In this document: positions 38,235-50,636 of the stretch, piece by piece | How the letters are laid out: each line of letters begins with the position of its first letter | How positions within the stretch are numbered: position 1 is the stretch's first letter | Origin: Calothrix sp. PCC 6303 | GTDB taxonomy: Bacteria > Cyanobacteriota > Cyanobacteriia > Cyanobacteriales > Nostocaceae | DNA length: 64,000 nt | Assembly (NCBI RefSeq): GCF_000317435.1 | Contig: NC_019751.1 | Coordinates: 1,364,001 to 1,428,000 of the forward strand | Reading direction: 5' to 3' | The notes under the pieces: model-generated | What the model was told of the DNA's origin: nothing | The model's database searches: none | Seen by the model: the letters and a program-made list of their open reading frames with translations, nothing else | Position numbers and translations under genes: made by a program

Positions 38235-38337
38235 ATACCAATTCAAATAATGATTGCAACACATCAAACAGTAGAGACGTAGCAGTGCTACGTCTCTACA
38301 AATATCTATCTATCGCATTGTTTTTTCAAATTGGTAT
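38235..38337. mobile_element. 103-base MITE, copy 1
   Basis: Ends ATACCAATTCAAAT and TTTCAAATTGGTAT are inverted repeats. The centre is a perfect GTAGAGACGTAGCA / TGCTACGTCTCTAC hairpin. It is identical to the copy at 41201-41303 except for one base (A or G near the right end). The rest of the 38338-38502 spacer shows only the promoter region of the permease gene. Confidence 0.85.
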
Positions 38338-41200: not shown

Positions 41201-41303
41201 ATACCAATTCAAATAATGATTGCAACACATCAAACAGTAGAGACGTAGCAGTGCTACGTCTCTACAAATATCTATCTGTCGCATTGTTTTTTCAAATTGG
41301 TAT
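41201..41303. mobile_element. 103-base MITE, copy 2
   Basis: 102 of 103 bases identical to 38235-38337, same orientation. Such identity implies very recent transposition or gene conversion. Direct copies on either side of the permease block could recombine and delete it. Confidence 0.88.
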
Positions 41304-43041: not shown

Positions 43042-44529
43042 TCAATGATACCAATTATCTACTTGTTGTTGAATACTTTCCAATTCCTCTGCTGACATTT
43101 TATCTAGGTTTTTTAAAATAAAGCTCATTCTTCCTTGCTTCATTAACTTATTGCGGTGACGGTGGAGAAAGTTCCAGTAAAAGAAGTTAAATGGACAGGC
43201 TTTTTCGCCAATTTTTTCTTTATGGTTGTATGCACAATTTTTACAGTAATCGCTCATTTTATTGATGTAATTGGCTGAGGATGCGTAGGGTTTTGATGCT
43301 AAAATTCCGCCATCGGCAAACAGTCCCATCCCAATTACGTTGGTTTGCATTACCCAGTCATATCCATCTATAAATGCCCCATGAAACCAGTTTTCTACTT
43401 CTTGAGGTGAAAACCCCGCTATCAATGAAAAGTTACTTAAAATCATCAATCTTTGGATATGATGTGCATATCCTGTGTTATGAATTTGCTTAAATGTCTG
43501 ATGTAGGCAATTCATATTTGTTTCACCTGTCCAGAAAAATTCTGGTAATGGGTGGGTGTGTTCAAAATAGTTTTCTTGGAAGTATGATGCTTCTACATAA
43601 TGATATAAGCCATGCATATATTCTCTCCATCCTAATATTTGACGAATAAATCCTTCGACGCTATTTAGGGGGATTTTTTCCTGTTGGTAGGCTGTTTCGG
43701 CAGCTTGAATAACTTCCAATGGATGTAATAAACCAATATTTAAATATGGAGATATCAAAGAATGCCACATGGTTTCTTCTCCTGTAACCATTGCATCTTG
43801 ATATGTGCCAAACTCAGTTAAATTGGTACAAATAAAATACTCTAATACTTCTAGTGCTTGGGTTCGGTTGACTCCCCAATTAAAGGATGTGAGGGAACCG
43901 TAGGTTGGTATTTCTAAGTTATTTACTACTTCTATAACTTCCAAAGTAATGTCATCTGCCTCAAAGTGTTTTGGTGGAGGTGGATTTAATTTACCTTTGG
44001 GTGGTTGACGATTTTCTTTGTCGTAGTTCCATTCTCCTCCTATTGGTTTTTTCCCCTCCATCAAGATATTAAACTTCTGTCTTCCTTCCCGGTAAAAATA
44101 TTCCATCAACAGGCTTTTTCTCCCTTTTGCCCATTCTTGAAATTCTGTTTTTTGCCAAAGGAAATGATTGTTGGCAATCACGGTTACTTTACAGGGTAAT
44201 TCTGCAATGATGTCCAAAAATCCCCTGTCTGGGGGTTCCATGATGCGAATTTCGCTGATGTTGTTTGCTTTTACCCATGCTTTGAGAGGTGTAATAAAGT
44301 CGTGACTGACTTCATAGGTAACTGCATACCCCTGTTGACGGAGTTCCTCAGCAAAATGACGCATTGCTGACCAGATTAACACGAGTTTTTGCTTGTGGTA
44401 AGGTCGCTTTTGGATGTGTTGAAGGGATTCAATGAAGATGACGGGGGTATTTTCTTGGTGACTACAACTTTGGATTGCTGCTTGTTGTTGTGAAAGTTGA
44501 TTTCCTAGTACCCATATTCCGGTTGCCAT
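43042..44529 (-). CDS. FeS-type bacterial (6-4) photolyase/cryptochrome
   Basis: A 495-residue member of the FeS-BCP class, which repairs (6-4) photoproducts or senses light using FAD, a lumazine antenna and a [4Fe-4S] cluster. Four cysteines are at about residues 341 (NMNCLHQ), 429, 432 (DYCKNC) and 445 (KACPF). Their spacing equals, as I recall it, that of the cluster ligands in Agrobacterium PhrB. HHIQRLMILSN (about 356) and DGYDWVMQTNVIGMG (about 388) belong to the FAD pocket. First of an operon with atzG-atzE. Confidence 0.9.
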   Translation of the reverse strand: MATGIWVLGNQLSQQQAAIQSCSHQENTPVIFIESLQHIQKRPYHKQKLVLIWSAMRHFAEELRQQGYAVTYEVSHDFITPLKAWVKANNISEIRIMEPPDRGFLDIIAELPCKVTVIANNHFLWQKTEFQEWAKGRKSLLMEYFYREGRQKFNILMEGKKPIGGEWNYDKENRQPPKGKLNPPPPKHFEADDITLEVIEVVNNLEIPTYGSLTSFNWGVNRTQALEVLEYFICTNLTEFGTYQDAMVTGEETMWHSLISPYLNIGLLHPLEVIQAAETAYQQEKIPLNSVEGFIRQILGWREYMHGLYHYVEASYFQENYFEHTHPLPEFFWTGETNMNCLHQTFKQIHNTGYAHHIQRLMILSNFSLIAGFSPQEVENWFHGAFIDGYDWVMQTNVIGMGLFADGGILASKPYASSANYINKMSDYCKNCAYNHKEKIGEKACPFNFFYWNFLHRHRNKLMKQGRMSFILKNLDKMSAEELESIQQQVDNWYH

Positions 44530-44631
44530 TGTTGAGTTGTTAGTTAGTACATAGTTTAATATAGACTATGTATTATGAATTGATACTATATTTTAATTTG
44601 GAAACACTAGCTATCTAAATATACTTCCCGT

Positions 44632-45327
44632 TCACCATAGGGAAGTTAAATGCAATCCTACCAACAAACTACTTTGGGATGTTATATCTACCCAGCAGCG
44701 ATGAACGCGACGATAAGTTAACCGAGTTACTTTAGCTGTGGATGGGTGCTTTGCGGTAAACAGTGCGTGACTTTGAGGGTGACGGGAAAATGTGATGTAG
44801 TTCCGCAAATAGGTTGCTGTTTCTACGTCATAGTGATTCCAATCCTGTTTCCTAACTAAAATTCTTTGATTCTCCAAATCTACATCTACTAGGTTTAGCG
44901 CTAAGATTTCTCCTATTTTCAGCTTGGTGCTGTAAATCAATCTAATTAATGCTGACATTCTCAAGTCTTTCTCTACAAATTGACATAGCTGAGTCATTTG
45001 TTCTGCTGTAATTTCACTTTCTTGTGTTTTCACAACTTTGCATCTTTTCAACCGGGAAATTGGGTTGTAATCTAGATATCCCTGCTCTACTCCAAAGTTA
45101 AAAACGGCTTGAATCACGGCTTGGTGACGATTACGGGTACTGTTGGAGATATTTGGGATGTTTTGGAGATATTTAATAATTGTGTCCCGATTAATGCTTT
45201 GTGGTGAGTGTTTCCCATACTGTTGCAGAAGTGGCATTAAGGTAGATATATAGGAGTTGTATGTAGTTTTATTTAGTTCTCTTTTATCTAAAAAAATCGA
45301 CACTAACCTAGCGAATGTAATTGACAA
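44632..45327 (-). CDS. Truncated, probably inactive tyrosine recombinase
   Basis: A 231-residue protein with the N-terminal SAM-like core-binding domain (about 1-90, SYISTLMPLLQQYGK) and the start of the catalytic domain. Box I reads STKLKIGEILALNLVDVD, where the catalytic Arg is replaced by Lys. The HxxR box and the tyrosine region are missing: after CWVDITSQSS the sequence leaves the family and stops. It may be a decaying integrase or a DNA-binding protein kept for regulation. It is divergent from the XRE regulator, sharing a 58-base control region. Confidence 0.72.
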   Translation of the reverse strand: MSITFARLVSIFLDKRELNKTTYNSYISTLMPLLQQYGKHSPQSINRDTIIKYLQNIPNISNSTRNRHQAVIQAVFNFGVEQGYLDYNPISRLKRCKVVKTQESEITAEQMTQLCQFVEKDLRMSALIRLIYSTKLKIGEILALNLVDVDLENQRILVRKQDWNHYDVETATYLRNYITFSRHPQSHALFTAKHPSTAKVTRLTYRRVHRCWVDITSQSSLLVGLHLTSLW

Positions 45328-45338
45328 GGTATTTTATT

Positions 45339-45383
45339 AACCTATACTAAATATCAAATAAACTATACTATAACCTATACTAA
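45339..45383. promoter_or_regulatory. Iterated CTATACTA operator
   Basis: AACCTATACTAA occurs at 45339-45350 and again at 45372-45383, three bases before the regulator ATG, with a CTATACTA core between them at 45363-45370. The iterons fill the gap between the divergent integrase-like and XRE genes. Likely binding sites for the XRE protein itself, giving autoregulation (inference). Confidence 0.6.
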
Positions 45384-45385
45384 CT

Positions 45386-45829
45386 ATGAAAGACCCTAAA
45401 CTACCCCTACCTGGGGAAACCCTGGGAACATACATCCACCGACTCCGCACTGAATTAAAAATGAGTCAGCAACAATTAGCGAAGGCGATGGGTATACATA
45501 TTCAAAGTGTTGGTAAAATTGAACGAGGACAAACATCACGCTTGAATACTAAGACTAAATCCGTTTGTGCGATCGCGCTTTCAATTCCGGTAGGATATTT
45601 GGATGCGGTGGTGCGGGGTGAGGTGGTATCTATTCCCGAAAAACAGCAGTTTTGTCCCAAATGTTGGACTCCAGGAAGTGAACCGGATGCAGTTTGGTTA
45701 ATTCATCGGGCAAAATATTGTTTGTTATGTGGGACTAAGTTACGTTCTTTTTGTCGCAGTTGCGGTGAACCTTTAGCATCTTTTAAACACAAATTTTGTC
45801 CCAACTGTGGAACTGGTTATCAGGAGTGA
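45386..45829 (+). CDS. XRE-family regulator with C-terminal zinc ribbons
   Basis: A 147-residue protein. HTH_3 at about residues 12-70: YIHRLRTELKMSQQQLAKAMG, then IQSVGKIERGQTSRLN. The C-terminal half has four CxxC knuckles: CPKC (about 92), CLLC, CRSC and CPNC (about 137), which should bind two Zn ions (double zinc ribbon). This combination suggests a DNA-binding regulator with a second nucleic-acid or protein contact. Divergent partner is the degenerate recombinase; an iterated operator lies in between. Confidence 0.82.
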   Translation: MKDPKLPLPGETLGTYIHRLRTELKMSQQQLAKAMGIHIQSVGKIERGQTSRLNTKTKSVCAIALSIPVGYLDAVVRGEVVSIPEKQQFCPKCWTPGSEPDAVWLIHRAKYCLLCGTKLRSFCRSCGEPLASFKHKFCPNCGTGYQE

Positions 45830-45914
45830 CTCTAAAGGCTAAAATTAAGAGTGTGCGTCACAGGTAGGCTATTGGTAAAATTTTAAATTTATTCAGAAAC
45901 ACCATATTTAACTA

Positions 45915-46517
45915 ATGTCATACAAAAATTTCACCACAATTGGCAAGGTAAAGGAAGCTTTTGGTTTGACTACGGTGGAGGGTGTTTGTTTCCTTCCAAA
46001 TATCGACGCGATTACTCCTAGTGGAACTTTAACTGCGTTTTTAGAGGAGAGTTTACCCTTAGCAGTTGCGACAGGTAGTGAAAAAGCACGTTCAGAAATG
46101 ATTATTTCCCCTGTTTTGATTGAAGTTCGCAAAATTCTCCAACGTCAAGTCAGTCTATTTTCTGGGGAAGAGTTTGATGTTGATGCAGAAGTGGGATTAA
46201 ATGGGTTTTGCGATTTTTTAATTAGTCGTTCTCCAGAACAGTTGGAAATTGAAGCTCCTGTTGTCATAATTGTAGAGGCTAAGAAGGCTGATTTAAAATC
46301 TGGAATTGGGCAATGTGTTGCTTCTATGGTTGCTGCACAAAGATTTAATGCGATGAAGAATAATTTGATTCCTGTTATATATGGTTGTGTCAGTAGTGGT
46401 ACCCAATGGAGATTCATGAAGTTGGAGGAAAAAATAGTCACTATCGATTTTACTGATTATCCTTTGTCTCCAGTGGGTCAAATTCTTGCTAGTTTAGTTT
46501 GGATGGTTGAAAAATAG
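45915..46517 (+). CDS. PD-(D/E)XK-like protein, member 1 of a convergent pair
   Basis: A 200-residue protein. The probable nuclease core is NGFCDFLISRSPEQ (Asp, about 98) and PVVIIVEAKKADLKSGIGQCVASMVAAQRF (ExK, about 118-122). YGCVSSGTQWRFMKL resembles the final strand of HSDR_N-type folds. The 46558 product shares the same pattern, so they are distant paralogues or members of one family. It follows the XRE regulator. No methyltransferase or specificity gene is nearby. Role unknown; such proteins are common in cyanobacteria. Confidence 0.72.
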   Translation: MSYKNFTTIGKVKEAFGLTTVEGVCFLPNIDAITPSGTLTAFLEESLPLAVATGSEKARSEMIISPVLIEVRKILQRQVSLFSGEEFDVDAEVGLNGFCDFLISRSPEQLEIEAPVVIIVEAKKADLKSGIGQCVASMVAAQRFNAMKNNLIPVIYGCVSSGTQWRFMKLEEKIVTIDFTDYPLSPVGQILASLVWMVEK

Positions 46518-46559
46518 TCTATATGCTTCATGGTTATATAACTATAAAGCATATAGACT
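46516..46559. repeat. 44-base near-perfect palindrome between convergent genes
   Basis: AGTCTATATGCTT at one end and AAGCATATAGACT at the other, centred on GTTATATAAC. It spans the stop codons of both PD-(D/E)XK genes. It is copy 1 of a 28-base palindrome family (TGCTT...GTTATATA...AAGCA) found five times up to 47986. It may act as a bidirectional 3' hairpin. Confidence 0.75.
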
Positions 46560-47154
46560 ATGAAATTGAGTTCTCAAAGATATAATTAACAGCAGCAAAC
46601 AACTTATCTAACTCTTGAATCGTATACAGATTTTTATTTCTGGTGAACACATCTATTGTGAGTTTTCCAAACTGCCAAATTTTCCCGTTGGAGACAATAC
46701 CAAAAATATCTGTTTCTAAATTTTCGTTGATGCGCTGTATTGCTACCATCTCTGCTAAACATTGTCCCCATCCTTCTTCAAATCGATCTTGTTTTGCTTC
46801 AACTGCAATAAAGTAGGGTTTGTCGAAGACTACGGGACTGAGTGGATTCCGCTGAGAAACTATATAATCGGGTACTCCCGATAAATCCTCATCATAGTTT
46901 AAGGTTTGATGACTCCACAGTGTCAGTTTACTACGGTAGTTTTTCCATACTTCTTTAAGAACCGGATAAATCAGGTTTTCACAGATTGCATCTTCGGAGT
47001 TATCTACAACTCCATCTGTAAAAAGGATATCTAGTTCTTCTTTAAAGCTATCTTTGACTGGAAACTCAATTTCTTCCATGAAATTGGTTTGAATATACTT
47101 GATTTGGAATTTTTTGATGACTGTGCTGATGCTTTTATAGTTGCTGAATGACAT
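46558..47154 (-). CDS. PD-(D/E)XK-like protein, member 2 of a convergent pair
   Basis: A 198-residue protein. SGVPDYIVSQRNP (Asp, about 108) and PYFIAVEAKQDRFEEGWGQCLAEMVAIQ (ExK, about 125-130) give the fold pattern, then FGIVSNGKIWQFGKL. It shares EAK, GQC and the last strand with the 45915 product. It starts MSFSNYKSI versus MSYKNFTTI in the partner, and both continue with a conserved-length N-terminal domain. It faces the partner tail to tail. A palindrome sits 13 bases before its ATG. Confidence 0.72.
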   Translation of the reverse strand: MSFSNYKSISTVIKKFQIKYIQTNFMEEIEFPVKDSFKEELDILFTDGVVDNSEDAICENLIYPVLKEVWKNYRSKLTLWSHQTLNYDEDLSGVPDYIVSQRNPLSPVVFDKPYFIAVEAKQDRFEEGWGQCLAEMVAIQRINENLETDIFGIVSNGKIWQFGKLTIDVFTRNKNLYTIQELDKLFAAVNYIFENSIS

Positions 47155-47166
47155 CTGAGATTTTCT

Positions 47167-47194
47167 TGCTTGATAGTTATATAACGATGAAGCA
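47167..47194. repeat. Palindrome family, copy 2
   Basis: TGCTTGATAGTTATATAACG...AAGCA, 28 bases, in the 48-base gap between the DUF3082 gene and the PD-(D/E)XK gene on the minus strand. Position just upstream of a start codon would suit an operator or a translational hairpin. Confidence 0.7.
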
Positions 47195-47202
47195 TATAAA
47201 TT

Positions 47203-47508
47203 CTAACTTTCTGAAGATTCTTTATTTGTGAACTTCTCAATGCCCAGTTGTATCCCCAAAGCAAATAATCCTAACGCAACTAATCCAAATATCCCCATTC
47301 CCATCCCAAATACCCCAACAATTAATGTCCTCACTGCAACGGTAATCCTGACTACTATCTCGTTATCTGAGTGAATCGGTTGATTGGCAAATTTAGTTGC
47401 TATAGATACCATAACGTTATATAGTGCATATCCCATGCCTCCGGAAATTAATGAACCTGTGAAGCAACGTAGGGGAGATGAGGTTGGTTGTTCTTGGGGT
47501 GATGTCAT
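47203..47508 (-). CDS. DUF3082-type small membrane protein
   Basis: A 101-residue protein with two hydrophobic segments (about 18-38, SLISGGMGYALYNVMVSIAT, and about 58-88, TLIVGVFGMGMGIFGLVALGLFALGI). The pattern and length fit the cyanobacterial DUF3082 family of unknown function. It is preceded by a heptamer repeat and by the tandem-duplicated ispE tail. Confidence 0.75.
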   Translation of the reverse strand: MTSPQEQPTSSPLRCFTGSLISGGMGYALYNVMVSIATKFANQPIHSDNEIVVRITVAVRTLIVGVFGMGMGIFGLVALGLFALGIQLGIEKFTNKESSES

Positions 47509-47512
47509 GGGA

Positions 47513-47542
47513 ATGAGTAATGAGTAATGAGTAATGAGTAAT
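47513..47542. repeat. ATGAGTA heptamer tandem repeat
   Basis: About 4.3 copies of a 7-base unit (ATGAGTA) directly upstream of the DUF3082 start codon. Short tandem heptamers are common in Nostoc-type genomes and vary in number by slippage, so copy number could alter leader length. Confidence 0.85.
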
Positions 47543-47570
47543 AGGGGAAAATGAAACTTGTACTACTATA

Positions 47571-48057
47571 CATGCTTCATAGTTATATAGCCATCAAGCA
47601 TGTGAAGTAAATTGAATTCCATGGGAAACCATTTTCGTGACGAATAACTCTAAATCCAAATTAGGAATCTTCTCCTGCTACTGAACCTAATATATCCCTT
47701 AAAGGAAACTCTAAGTTTTAAGTGGGTGGATGAGAGCATTTTTCGGAAGTTTCCAAGAGTCCACATGCTTCATAGTTATATAGCCATCAAGCATGTGAAG
47801 TAACTTGAATTCCGTCGGATACCATTTTCGTGACGAATAACTTTAAATCCAAATTAGGAATCTTCTCCTGCTACTGAACCTAATATATCCCTTAAAGGAA
47901 ACTCTAAGTTTTAAGTGGATGGATGAAAGCATTTTTCGGAAGTTTCCAAGAGTCTACATGCTTCATAGTTATATAGCTATCAAGCATGTGAAGTAACTTG
48001 AATTCCATGGGAAACCATCTTCGTCACAAATAACTCTAAATCCATATTAGGAATCTT
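47571..48057. repeat. 193-base tandem repeat that includes the ispE 3' end
   Basis: Unit A 47571-47763, unit B 47764-47956 and a partial unit C from 47957 that runs into ispE. Each starts with the palindrome (28-base cores at 47573, 47766, 47959), then about 78 bases corresponding to the last 25 ispE codons, then a spacer ending GGAAGTTTCCAAGAGT. In units A and B the ispE tail is still open in frame with the stop kept (for example KIPNLDLELFVTKMVSHG), although it has no start. Spacing is exactly 193 in both steps. Confidence 0.9.
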
Positions 48058-48906
48058 CCCCCTTATATATTCCTCAACTTCCTTCGCTTGCTGTTGACTT
48101 TCACAAATTCCAAAAACACTGGGACCAGAACCTGACATCATAGTTCCTAATACCCCTGCATTGTGAAATGTTTCTCTAAGTTCCCTAACTAGGGGATATT
48201 CTGGAAGTACAACTTTTTCTAAGTCGTTGTGTAATTCCTGGCAAATATCTTTCACATCTTTCTTGGAGATAGCTTTTACCATGTTTCCGGAGTGAACTGC
48301 TAGACTATCTATATCCTGGGAATATGTATGCCCAAATTGAGTACGGTAAGTTTTATATGCCCAGGGTGTGGAAACTTCGAGGCTTTTATATTTCCCCAAT
48401 ACTATATATATACCTTCCAAGCTGGGGATGGGTGAAATTTGTTCTCCTCTCCCGGTTGCGATCGCACTCCCGCCTGAGATACAAAATGGAATATCGGAAC
48501 CTATTTCTGCTGATATTTCTTGAAGTTCTCCCTGGGTAAGTCCCAGGTTCCATAATAAGTCTACGGCAACAAATACGGCTGCGGCATTTGTGGAACCTCC
48601 TGCTAATCCGGCGGCGATGGGGATATTTTTGGTAATTTGAATCTCAAATCCCCCGTATTTTGTGAATGCATCAGGAAATTTTTTCCCCATCAATTCGGCT
48701 GCACGATATGCCAAATTACTGTTGTCGCTTGGTACTTGGGAATTTTGGCAACTAACTTGAATCCTTTTATCCCCGCTCAAAATAATATCAACTTCATCTG
48801 CAAGTTCGATACTCTGCATCACCATTGCTAATTCGTGAAATCCATCTGTTCTGCTGCCGATGATTTCTAGATATAGGTTGATTTTAGCAGGTGCTGTTAG
48901 TCGCAT
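47980..48906 (-). CDS. ispE: 4-diphosphocytidyl-2-C-methyl-D-erythritol kinase
   Basis: IspE phosphorylates CDP-methylerythritol in the MEP isoprenoid pathway that feeds carotenoids, chlorophyll phytol and quinones. The 308-residue protein (start MRLTAPAKINLYLEI, chosen inside a longer frame) is a GHMP kinase: PIAAGLAGGSTNAAAVF (ATP loop, about 96-112), DIPFCISGGSA and GTMMSGSGPSVFG (about 262-275). It overlaps the end of rsmA by 10 bases, so the two are translated from one message. Its stop codon lies inside the palindrome, and its 3' end is copied twice downstream. Confidence 0.95.
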   Translation of the reverse strand: MRLTAPAKINLYLEIIGSRTDGFHELAMVMQSIELADEVDIILSGDKRIQVSCQNSQVPSDNSNLAYRAAELMGKKFPDAFTKYGGFEIQITKNIPIAAGLAGGSTNAAAVFVAVDLLWNLGLTQGELQEISAEIGSDIPFCISGGSAIATGRGEQISPIPSLEGIYIVLGKYKSLEVSTPWAYKTYRTQFGHTYSQDIDSLAVHSGNMVKAISKKDVKDICQELHNDLEKVVLPEYPLVRELRETFHNAGVLGTMMSGSGPSVFGICESQQQAKEVEEYIRGKIPNMDLELFVTKMVSHGIQVTSHA

Positions 48907-49754
48907 GGAACTACTTCTGTTGAGGGAATTGAAAGATGGTTGCTCAATTTTACCCATTGTTGCACACTGAGGTCTTCGGCGCGGTCTTGGGGATTCATCC
49001 CTAATTGTTCCATAATTTCATTCATGCGATCGCGTTCCACCACAGATTGCAAATTATTTCGTAACATTTTCCTTTTGGCGGCGAATCCCAATTTTACCAG
49101 AGTTTCTAACCATTTAGGGTCGTCTGCGACTTTCTCCAATTTCCTGGGTGTTAATTTGACGACTGCGGAGTCAACTTTGGGTGCTGGGTGAAATGCTTTG
49201 GCGGGGACTGTGCAGATATACTCACATTCTGCTAAATATTGTACACGAATTGTTAATGCTCCACATGCTCTATTTCCTGGCTTCGATACTAACCTCTCGG
49301 CGACTTCTTTCTGAATTAATAAGACGATAGATTCATAGGGTTCTGGATTTGGATTGCTAATTCTTCCTAAGAGTTTCTCAATAATTGGTCCAGTAATATT
49401 GTAGGGAATATTCGCCACTACTTTGTTGGGTTTTTGAAACTTGGGAAACCCAGCTAATAGTGTTGCTAATTCTACTTCTAAAAAGTCGCTTTGAAGTAAT
49501 AAAAAGTTATCTTTTTCCCCCAATCCTTTAACTAATAATTTGCACAAATTACTATCAATTTCCACCGCTACCAATGCCCCCACCAAAGGTAGTAACCGCC
49601 GTGTGAGGATACCTGTTCCTGGTCCTATTTCCAAAACGCGATCGCATTCTGTGCATTCTGCTGCCCGTGCGATCGCATCCAATGCCTTCTCACTCTTGAG
49701 CCAATGTTGAGCAAGTGCCCTGCGCGTTTTTACCTCTTTTTCTCTTTGTTCCAT
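48897..49754 (-). CDS. rsmA: 16S rRNA (adenine 1518/1519-N6)-dimethyltransferase
   Basis: RsmA/KsgA dimethylates two adjacent adenines in helix 45 of 16S rRNA during 30S maturation. The 285-residue product has VLEIGPGTGILTRRLL (SAM motif I, about 40-55), VEIDSNL and the catalytic motif NIPYNITGPII (about 115-125). Basic C-terminal helical domain (KRKMLRNNL). It is coupled to ispE downstream, a gene order common in cyanobacteria. The 303 bases upstream hold no further gene. Confidence 0.95.
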   Translation of the reverse strand: MEQREKEVKTRRALAQHWLKSEKALDAIARAAECTECDRVLEIGPGTGILTRRLLPLVGALVAVEIDSNLCKLLVKGLGEKDNFLLLQSDFLEVELATLLAGFPKFQKPNKVVANIPYNITGPIIEKLLGRISNPNPEPYESIVLLIQKEVAERLVSKPGNRACGALTIRVQYLAECEYICTVPAKAFHPAPKVDSAVVKLTPRKLEKVADDPKWLETLVKLGFAAKRKMLRNNLQSVVERDRMNEIMEQLGMNPQDRAEDLSVQQWVKLSNHLSIPSTEVVPCD

Positions 49755-50057
49755 AGATGTTTTAGGTTTTACTGGATTTTAGCTTTCTTACTTTTTGCTT
49801 ACTTTTTATGCCCTATTTTTTGCTATTTTTGGCGTTTTAGGGATTGACTTTGACATGCAAATAGTGTTTAGGGCAGAATAAAATATATGGATTCGGGGAA
49901 AACATCATCAAAAATAAATTTAGAAATTAATTAGATATTGCTTAACTTTTAGAGGAATCTGATTCGGACACATGAACCATCAGTTTACCTTAGAAATTAG
50001 GTTTATTTCACAATTTTTAAGTTACCCTTTAAACATAGCTGAATCTGGTGATTCTCA
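49755..50057. other. Divergent intergenic region
   Basis: AT-rich promoter region shared by rsmA (minus) and the Uma2 gene (plus). I see no repeat or hairpin worth naming. Confidence 0.4.
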
Positions 50058-50636
50058 ATGACAGCAATCACAATTAACCTTAAAAATATCATCCAACTTA
50101 CCGACGAGCAATTTTATCAGCTTTGTCGGAACAACCCGGAAATAAAATTTGAACGCAACAGCAACGGGGAAGTTATCATTATGCCACCAACAGGAGGGGG
50201 AACAGGGAAACGAAATGTGGAAATCAGTGCAGATTTTGTAATTTGGAATCGCAAGCATAAACTAGGTGTACTCTTCGACTCCTCCACCTGTTTCAAACTA
50301 CCCAACGGTGCAAATCGTTCCCCCGACGTTTCCTGGATTCGGAATGACAGGTGGGATACCCTAACTACCGAAGAACAGGAAAAATTTCCCCCCATCGCAC
50401 CCGACTTTGTTCTGGAGTTAATGTCACCAACCGATAGTTTGCGAGAAACTCAAGGGAAAATGCAGGAATATATGAATAATGGGGTGAAACTGGGATGGTT
50501 AATTAATCGGAAATTGCGTCAAGTTGAAATATATCGGTTGAGGAAAGCAGTAGAAGTGTTGGAAAATCCCACAGAAATATCGGGAGAAGATATATTACCG
50601 GGGTTTACTTTAGATTTAGAGATAATTTGGCAGTAG
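50058..50636 (+). CDS. Uma2 family endonuclease-like protein
   Basis: A 192-residue Uma2/DUF820 protein: LCRNNPEIKFERNSNGEVIIMPPTGG (about 22-47), ANRSPDVSWIRNDRW (Asp), PDFVLELMSPTDS (Glu) and QEYMNNGVKLGWLINRKLRQVEIYR. It is closely similar in pattern to the 10411 product. Single gene, followed by a degenerate hairpin repeat. Confidence 0.85.
   Translation: MTAITINLKNIIQLTDEQFYQLCRNNPEIKFERNSNGEVIIMPPTGGGTGKRNVEISADFVIWNRKHKLGVLFDSSTCFKLPNGANRSPDVSWIRNDRWDTLTTEEQEKFPPIAPDFVLELMSPTDSLRETQGKMQEYMNNGVKLGWLINRKLRQVEIYRLRKAVEVLENPTEISGEDILPGFTLDLEIIWQ

Follow-up and report, generated by a model that had tools for sequence, protein, structure and literature searches.

The 3′ end of ispE in Calothrix sp. 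PCC 6303 lies in a real local tandem duplication, arranged around a REP-like palindrome (P) and most probably neutral. The array is located in the window, a 64,000-nucleotide stretch of this genome, and offers a small example of a gene-end palindrome within tandem repeats that include part of an essential gene. We consider it probable that P, a REP-like element of low copy number, favoured a duplication on the spot that took two or more steps, with no function required.

TRF delineated a tandem array at 47570–48058 with a period of 193, 2.5 copies, 94% matches, no indels and a score of 887, and a second repeat search returned the identical register, with spacings of 193 and 193. The original prediction of two full units and a partial third at a 193-base spacing is confirmed by both searches. 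Read in coding order, on the minus strand, the parts are arranged as ispE-T0-P0-X-T1-P1-X-T2-P2, followed by the DUF3082 gene, where T comprises the final ~25 ispE codons, P is a ~30-bp palindrome containing the ispE TGA stop and occurring once per unit, and X occupies 90 bp in each full unit (Table 1). The ispE gene was identified by TIGR00154 (308.4 bits), and the partial third unit of the array is its genuine 3′ end. This anatomy bears out the earlier statement that the ispE 3′ end plus its spacer was amplified in tandem. An in-frame TAG lies shortly upstream of both copied tails, which therefore do not belong to any more extended translated frame. In 464 kb of the same genome, comprising the window and 20 stretches of 20 kb (TRF period limit 500), the 193-bp array is the sole one with a period above 135; the other arrays of period above 100 repeat at 105, 120, 126 and 132 bases with 76–86% matches, against 94% here. 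Immediately upstream of the DUF3082 start, a separate heptamer, AATGAGT, is repeated 4.4 times at 47512–47542.

Table 1. Features of the array and of the neighbouring genes, in positions of the window
Feature	Position	Strand
P0 + T0, real ispE 3′ end with palindrome (last ~25 codons, stop ends 47980); partial third unit	47956–48058	-
Full unit: X 47866–47955, T1 47800–47865, P1 47763–47799	47763–47955	-
Full unit: X 47673–47762, T2 47607–47672, P2 47570–47606	47570–47762	-
ispE, longest ORF; alternative start possible at 48906	47980–48957	-
DUF3082 gene, usual downstream neighbour of ispE	47203–47508	-
P0 core, holds last ispE codons and TGA stop	47959–47987	.
P1 core	47766–47794	.
P2 core	47573–47601	.
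Fourth P copy, outside array, between DUF3082 stop and start of 198-aa ORF	47167–47195	.
Fifth P copy, outside array: 48-bp near-perfect palindrome across both stop codons of the convergent PD-(D/E)XK-like pair	46514–46561	.
XerA/XerC-like tyrosine recombinase ORF, ends early (model positions 7–198 of 263)	44632–45327	-
Protein with HTH domain and double zinc ribbon	45386–45829	+
PD-(D/E)XK-like ORF, convergent pair	45915–46517	+
PD-(D/E)XK-like ORF, convergent pair	46558–47154	-

Among the loci searched, the array is seen only in this genome. Related ispE loci were drawn from two sets (19 and 80, with at least two genomes in both), and an ungapped test extending up to 2.5 kb downstream, with 722–2500 bases available, found a second ispE tail in 0 of 99. 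The uses suggested earlier for the copies, spare 3′ ends for recombination or repeated mRNA 3′ structures, are not supported. The best second-tail candidate in these loci was identical at 42 of 81 positions, versus 75 of 81 in this array. The nearest named relatives are MAGs labelled Calothrix and Nostocaceae, whose IspE is 69–70% identical. The common family order is rsmA-ispE-DUF3082, with DUF3082 on the strand of ispE in 87 of 99 loci, and the spacer between the two genes, 471 bases here, is shorter in 79 of those 87. In two relatives (L018 and L019), an extra ORF is found between ispE and DUF3082, one of them transposase-like by eye. Partial tandem duplication of a bacterial gene leaves short segments, each with a fragment of the gene, joined head to tail. 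The array has this character, with head-to-tail copies of equal period that include a gene fragment and a single-copy state in 99 of 99 related loci; it differs by the 90-bp X between copies and by the palindrome in every unit. Literature searches found no report of this array.

Short tandem arrays are prone to misassembly, and a single unit could have been multiplied by the assembler. We regard such an artefact as extremely improbable here. Between the full units 8 of 193 positions differ, and neither unit is identical to the ispE end, so that the array is no plain assembly duplicate and the worry is weakened; in addition, the region belongs to a 6.77-Mb contig in a 4-contig assembly.

The original prediction overlooked two copies of P outside the array, the fourth and fifth in Table 1, of which the former lies 7 bases past the DUF3082 stop. 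At up to 3 mismatches, P is found in five places of the 6.96-Mb genome, all within 1.5 kb and at gene 3′ ends, and nowhere else; at up to 2 mismatches, it is absent from 216 other family genomes, the one positive among 217 being the genome itself. The exact P pattern had no match in genome_contigs and viral_contigs, where this genome was perhaps left out. A dispersed repeat family was rejected: below E 0.1, matches to the full units in this genome were limited to the units, the ispE end and the two P copies outside the array, and the ~18 further matches listed have E of 0.36 or more. A plasmid search gave no match, and six Rfam matches all fell well under the gathering scores of their families. 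The one surprising part of these observations is that P is restricted to 1.5 kb.

This restriction would be accounted for if a neighbouring gene product, namely the HTH-zinc ribbon protein, a PD-(D/E)XK-like protein or the XerA-like recombinase, used P as an operator or as a site of recombination or cleavage. All five copies of P lie within 3 kb of these genes, both PD-(D/E)XK-like ORFs match the PADLOC PD_DExK model (E 2.5e-52 and 7.5e-49), and P has by eye two ~12-base arms flanking a 6-base centre. However, the recombinase ORF ends early, and a search for P half-sites within 2 mismatches found none in 43230–46524, so that the region upstream of the HTH gene is without one. The convergent pair are paralogues with 31% identity; 202 and 201 of the 217 family genomes (this one included) contain relatives, and for the second ORF many family genomes have relatives at 78–83% identity. 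When the best 30 loci per ORF were inspected, a repeated palindrome was present in 1 of 30 and 1 of 30, the own locus both times, and in none of the 58 other loci fetched; the same arrangement was found in 0 of 100 control pieces of the genome, and single palindromes at the same threshold were common, occurring in 13 and 11 of the 30 loci per ORF and in 28 of the 100 controls. As only the own locus has the repeated palindrome, the P cluster is no general companion of PD-(D/E)XK-like genes, and a nuclease-cassette reading was abandoned on the same 0 of 58. A site for a neighbouring protein is, on balance, unlikely. A more specific version, in which P is cut or bound by an adjacent-encoded protein and recurrent breaks at P, mended with a neighbouring P as template, would actively enlarge arrays of gene 3′ ends, is very improbable; if true, it would amount to a local, site-specific duplication system, with the PD-(D/E)XK-like pair as the most interesting candidates.

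Each of the four genes here, ispE, DUF3082 and the convergent pair, has P at its 3′ end, overlapping the stop or no more than 8 bases away from it; this could mean function and counts against our preferred explanation. P might act as a functional 3′-end hairpin, that is, as an mRNA stabiliser, a processing site or a non-canonical terminator, multiplied between ispE and DUF3082. We find this unlikely. Four of the five P copies fold as RNA better than shuffles (z −4.2 to −8.4), and the 441-nt array RNA reaches z −6.35, a value that palindromes and repeats alone can give; for the copy at 47167, 42 of 200 shuffles were as good, and it does not stand out from them. Most Synechococcus elongatus transcription units end without known termination pathways, but the noncanonical ends broadly lack strong structure (PMC13289151). 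A search for terminator-like sites located a single one in 44500–50100, against 4.1 expected, and it lies away from every P copy. The absence of P from the 216 other family genomes likewise argues against a hairpin function. As to the repeated mRNA 3′ structures envisaged at the outset, P can fold as an RNA hairpin, yet has a terminator-like site in none of its copies, and a hairpin role for P is possible but unsupported. The copied tails are indeed open with few changes, as first noted, but this is no sign of use: 13 of 234 single changes create a stop in the tail, 76–80% of simulated tails are still open after 4–5 changes, and extrapolation to the 8 differences of the most diverged copy gives ~64% open (0.945 to the 8th power). 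Open tails are expected by chance, and openness is therefore uninformative.

Differences among the copies are few. Over the shared 103 bp, the T-P copies differ at 5 (T1–T2), 6 (T0–T2) and 9 (T0–T1) positions. T0-P0 is the odd one at five variable positions, one in P and four in T (a nonsynonymous change in codon 5 and synonymous ones in codons 10, 11 and 13); T1-P1 is the odd one at four (codons 8 and 17, nonsynonymous, codon 17 with two changes; codon 15, synonymous); and T2-P2 at one (codon 21, nonsynonymous). These counts agree with T1 and T2 as the younger pair, without proof. Codons altered in one copy only comprise three nonsynonymous and one synonymous, against a random expectation of 79%, so the substitution pattern between units, proposed earlier as a check, fits neutrality on tiny numbers. 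Just beyond the T boundary, the copies carry a Glu codon, GAG, where the real gene has GGG; six relatives have Glu at the same position (GAG in three, GAA in three), and the sharing may be a chance coincidence.

X is present after P0 and P1 and absent after P2, so that a single simple tandem duplication of T-P-X is insufficient; we infer from this arrangement that at least one further step is needed, whether X was inserted or lost or the copying itself was more complex. The substitutions were dropped as proof of two steps, since distances of 5, 6 and 9 are too close and barely separate T1 and T2 from T0, lending the two-step order weak support; both units may instead have arisen in one complex event. 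In the explanation we prefer, a short, low-copy REP-like P lies at the extreme 3′ end of ispE, containing its stop codon; T-P would have been copied beside X, plausibly through template switching or slippage at the hairpin-forming P; exchange between the repeated T-P segments would have produced a further 193-bp unit; and the copies would have drifted. Template switching at hairpins is described with yeast and human examples in PMC7999016.

The origin of X was sought by comparison with shuffled sequences and with other genomes, and these comparisons yielded no source. By eye, X gave the impression of an upstream continuation of ispE, an idea dropped on the shuffle tests: one X copy compared with ispE did no better than shuffles (189 and 207 of 500 as good), and the same held against the final 300 bases of the ispE genes of 13 relatives (77–200 of 200 as good) and against the local 7 kb on either strand (257–486 of 500 as good). 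In the downstream spacers of the same 13 relatives, the best comparison had 22 of 200 shuffles as good. A search of 388 genomes from the order, a subset of a larger group, gave matches of 22–44 bases (E 1.8e-4 to 0.0066) in 8 of the 387 others; the best two, of 25 bases and from one genus, fall within an open frame, show no resemblance outside these bases and were taken as chance.

The array probably works like published REP clusters. REP palindromes, which span 20–40 bp and fall into the GTAG and CGTC superfamilies, undergo tandem reiteration with flanking DNA, and some supply the stop codons of flanking ORFs (PMC3733652). P resembles the elements portrayed there as a short palindrome near or overlapping stops, clustered in tandem with flanking DNA and supplying a stop: its five copies have a ~30-bp core, P0 contains the ispE TGA, and the copy at 46514 overlaps two stops. 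Unlike those elements, P is found in five copies confined to 1.5 kb, one of which reaches 48 bp, above the 20–40 bp range, and the copies share no GTAG or CGTC tag, GTAG following straight after the arm in P0 only and being absent from the other four. Given that P lacks both the high copy number and the tag, it is not classed as a member of a REP family. In adding codons to a conserved protein gene, P also recalls the Rickettsia palindromic elements, which are fused in frame within genes (PMC2229807); these RPEs measure 105–146 bp and occur in many genes, whereas P measures 30–48 bp and sits at a gene end in one place. Related strains, once sequenced, could show how a REP-like repeat arises or, alternatively, reveal a site-specific process acting locally. 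Very small mobile repeats of cyanobacteria are reportedly the subject of Elhai et al. 2008, to judge by its title. Elsewhere in the window, another 29-bp palindrome, GTAGAGACGTAGCAnTGCTACGTCTCTAC, is present at 38271–38299 and 41237–41265 and was counted nine times in 400 kb sampled; it starts with GTAG and looks like a REP family.
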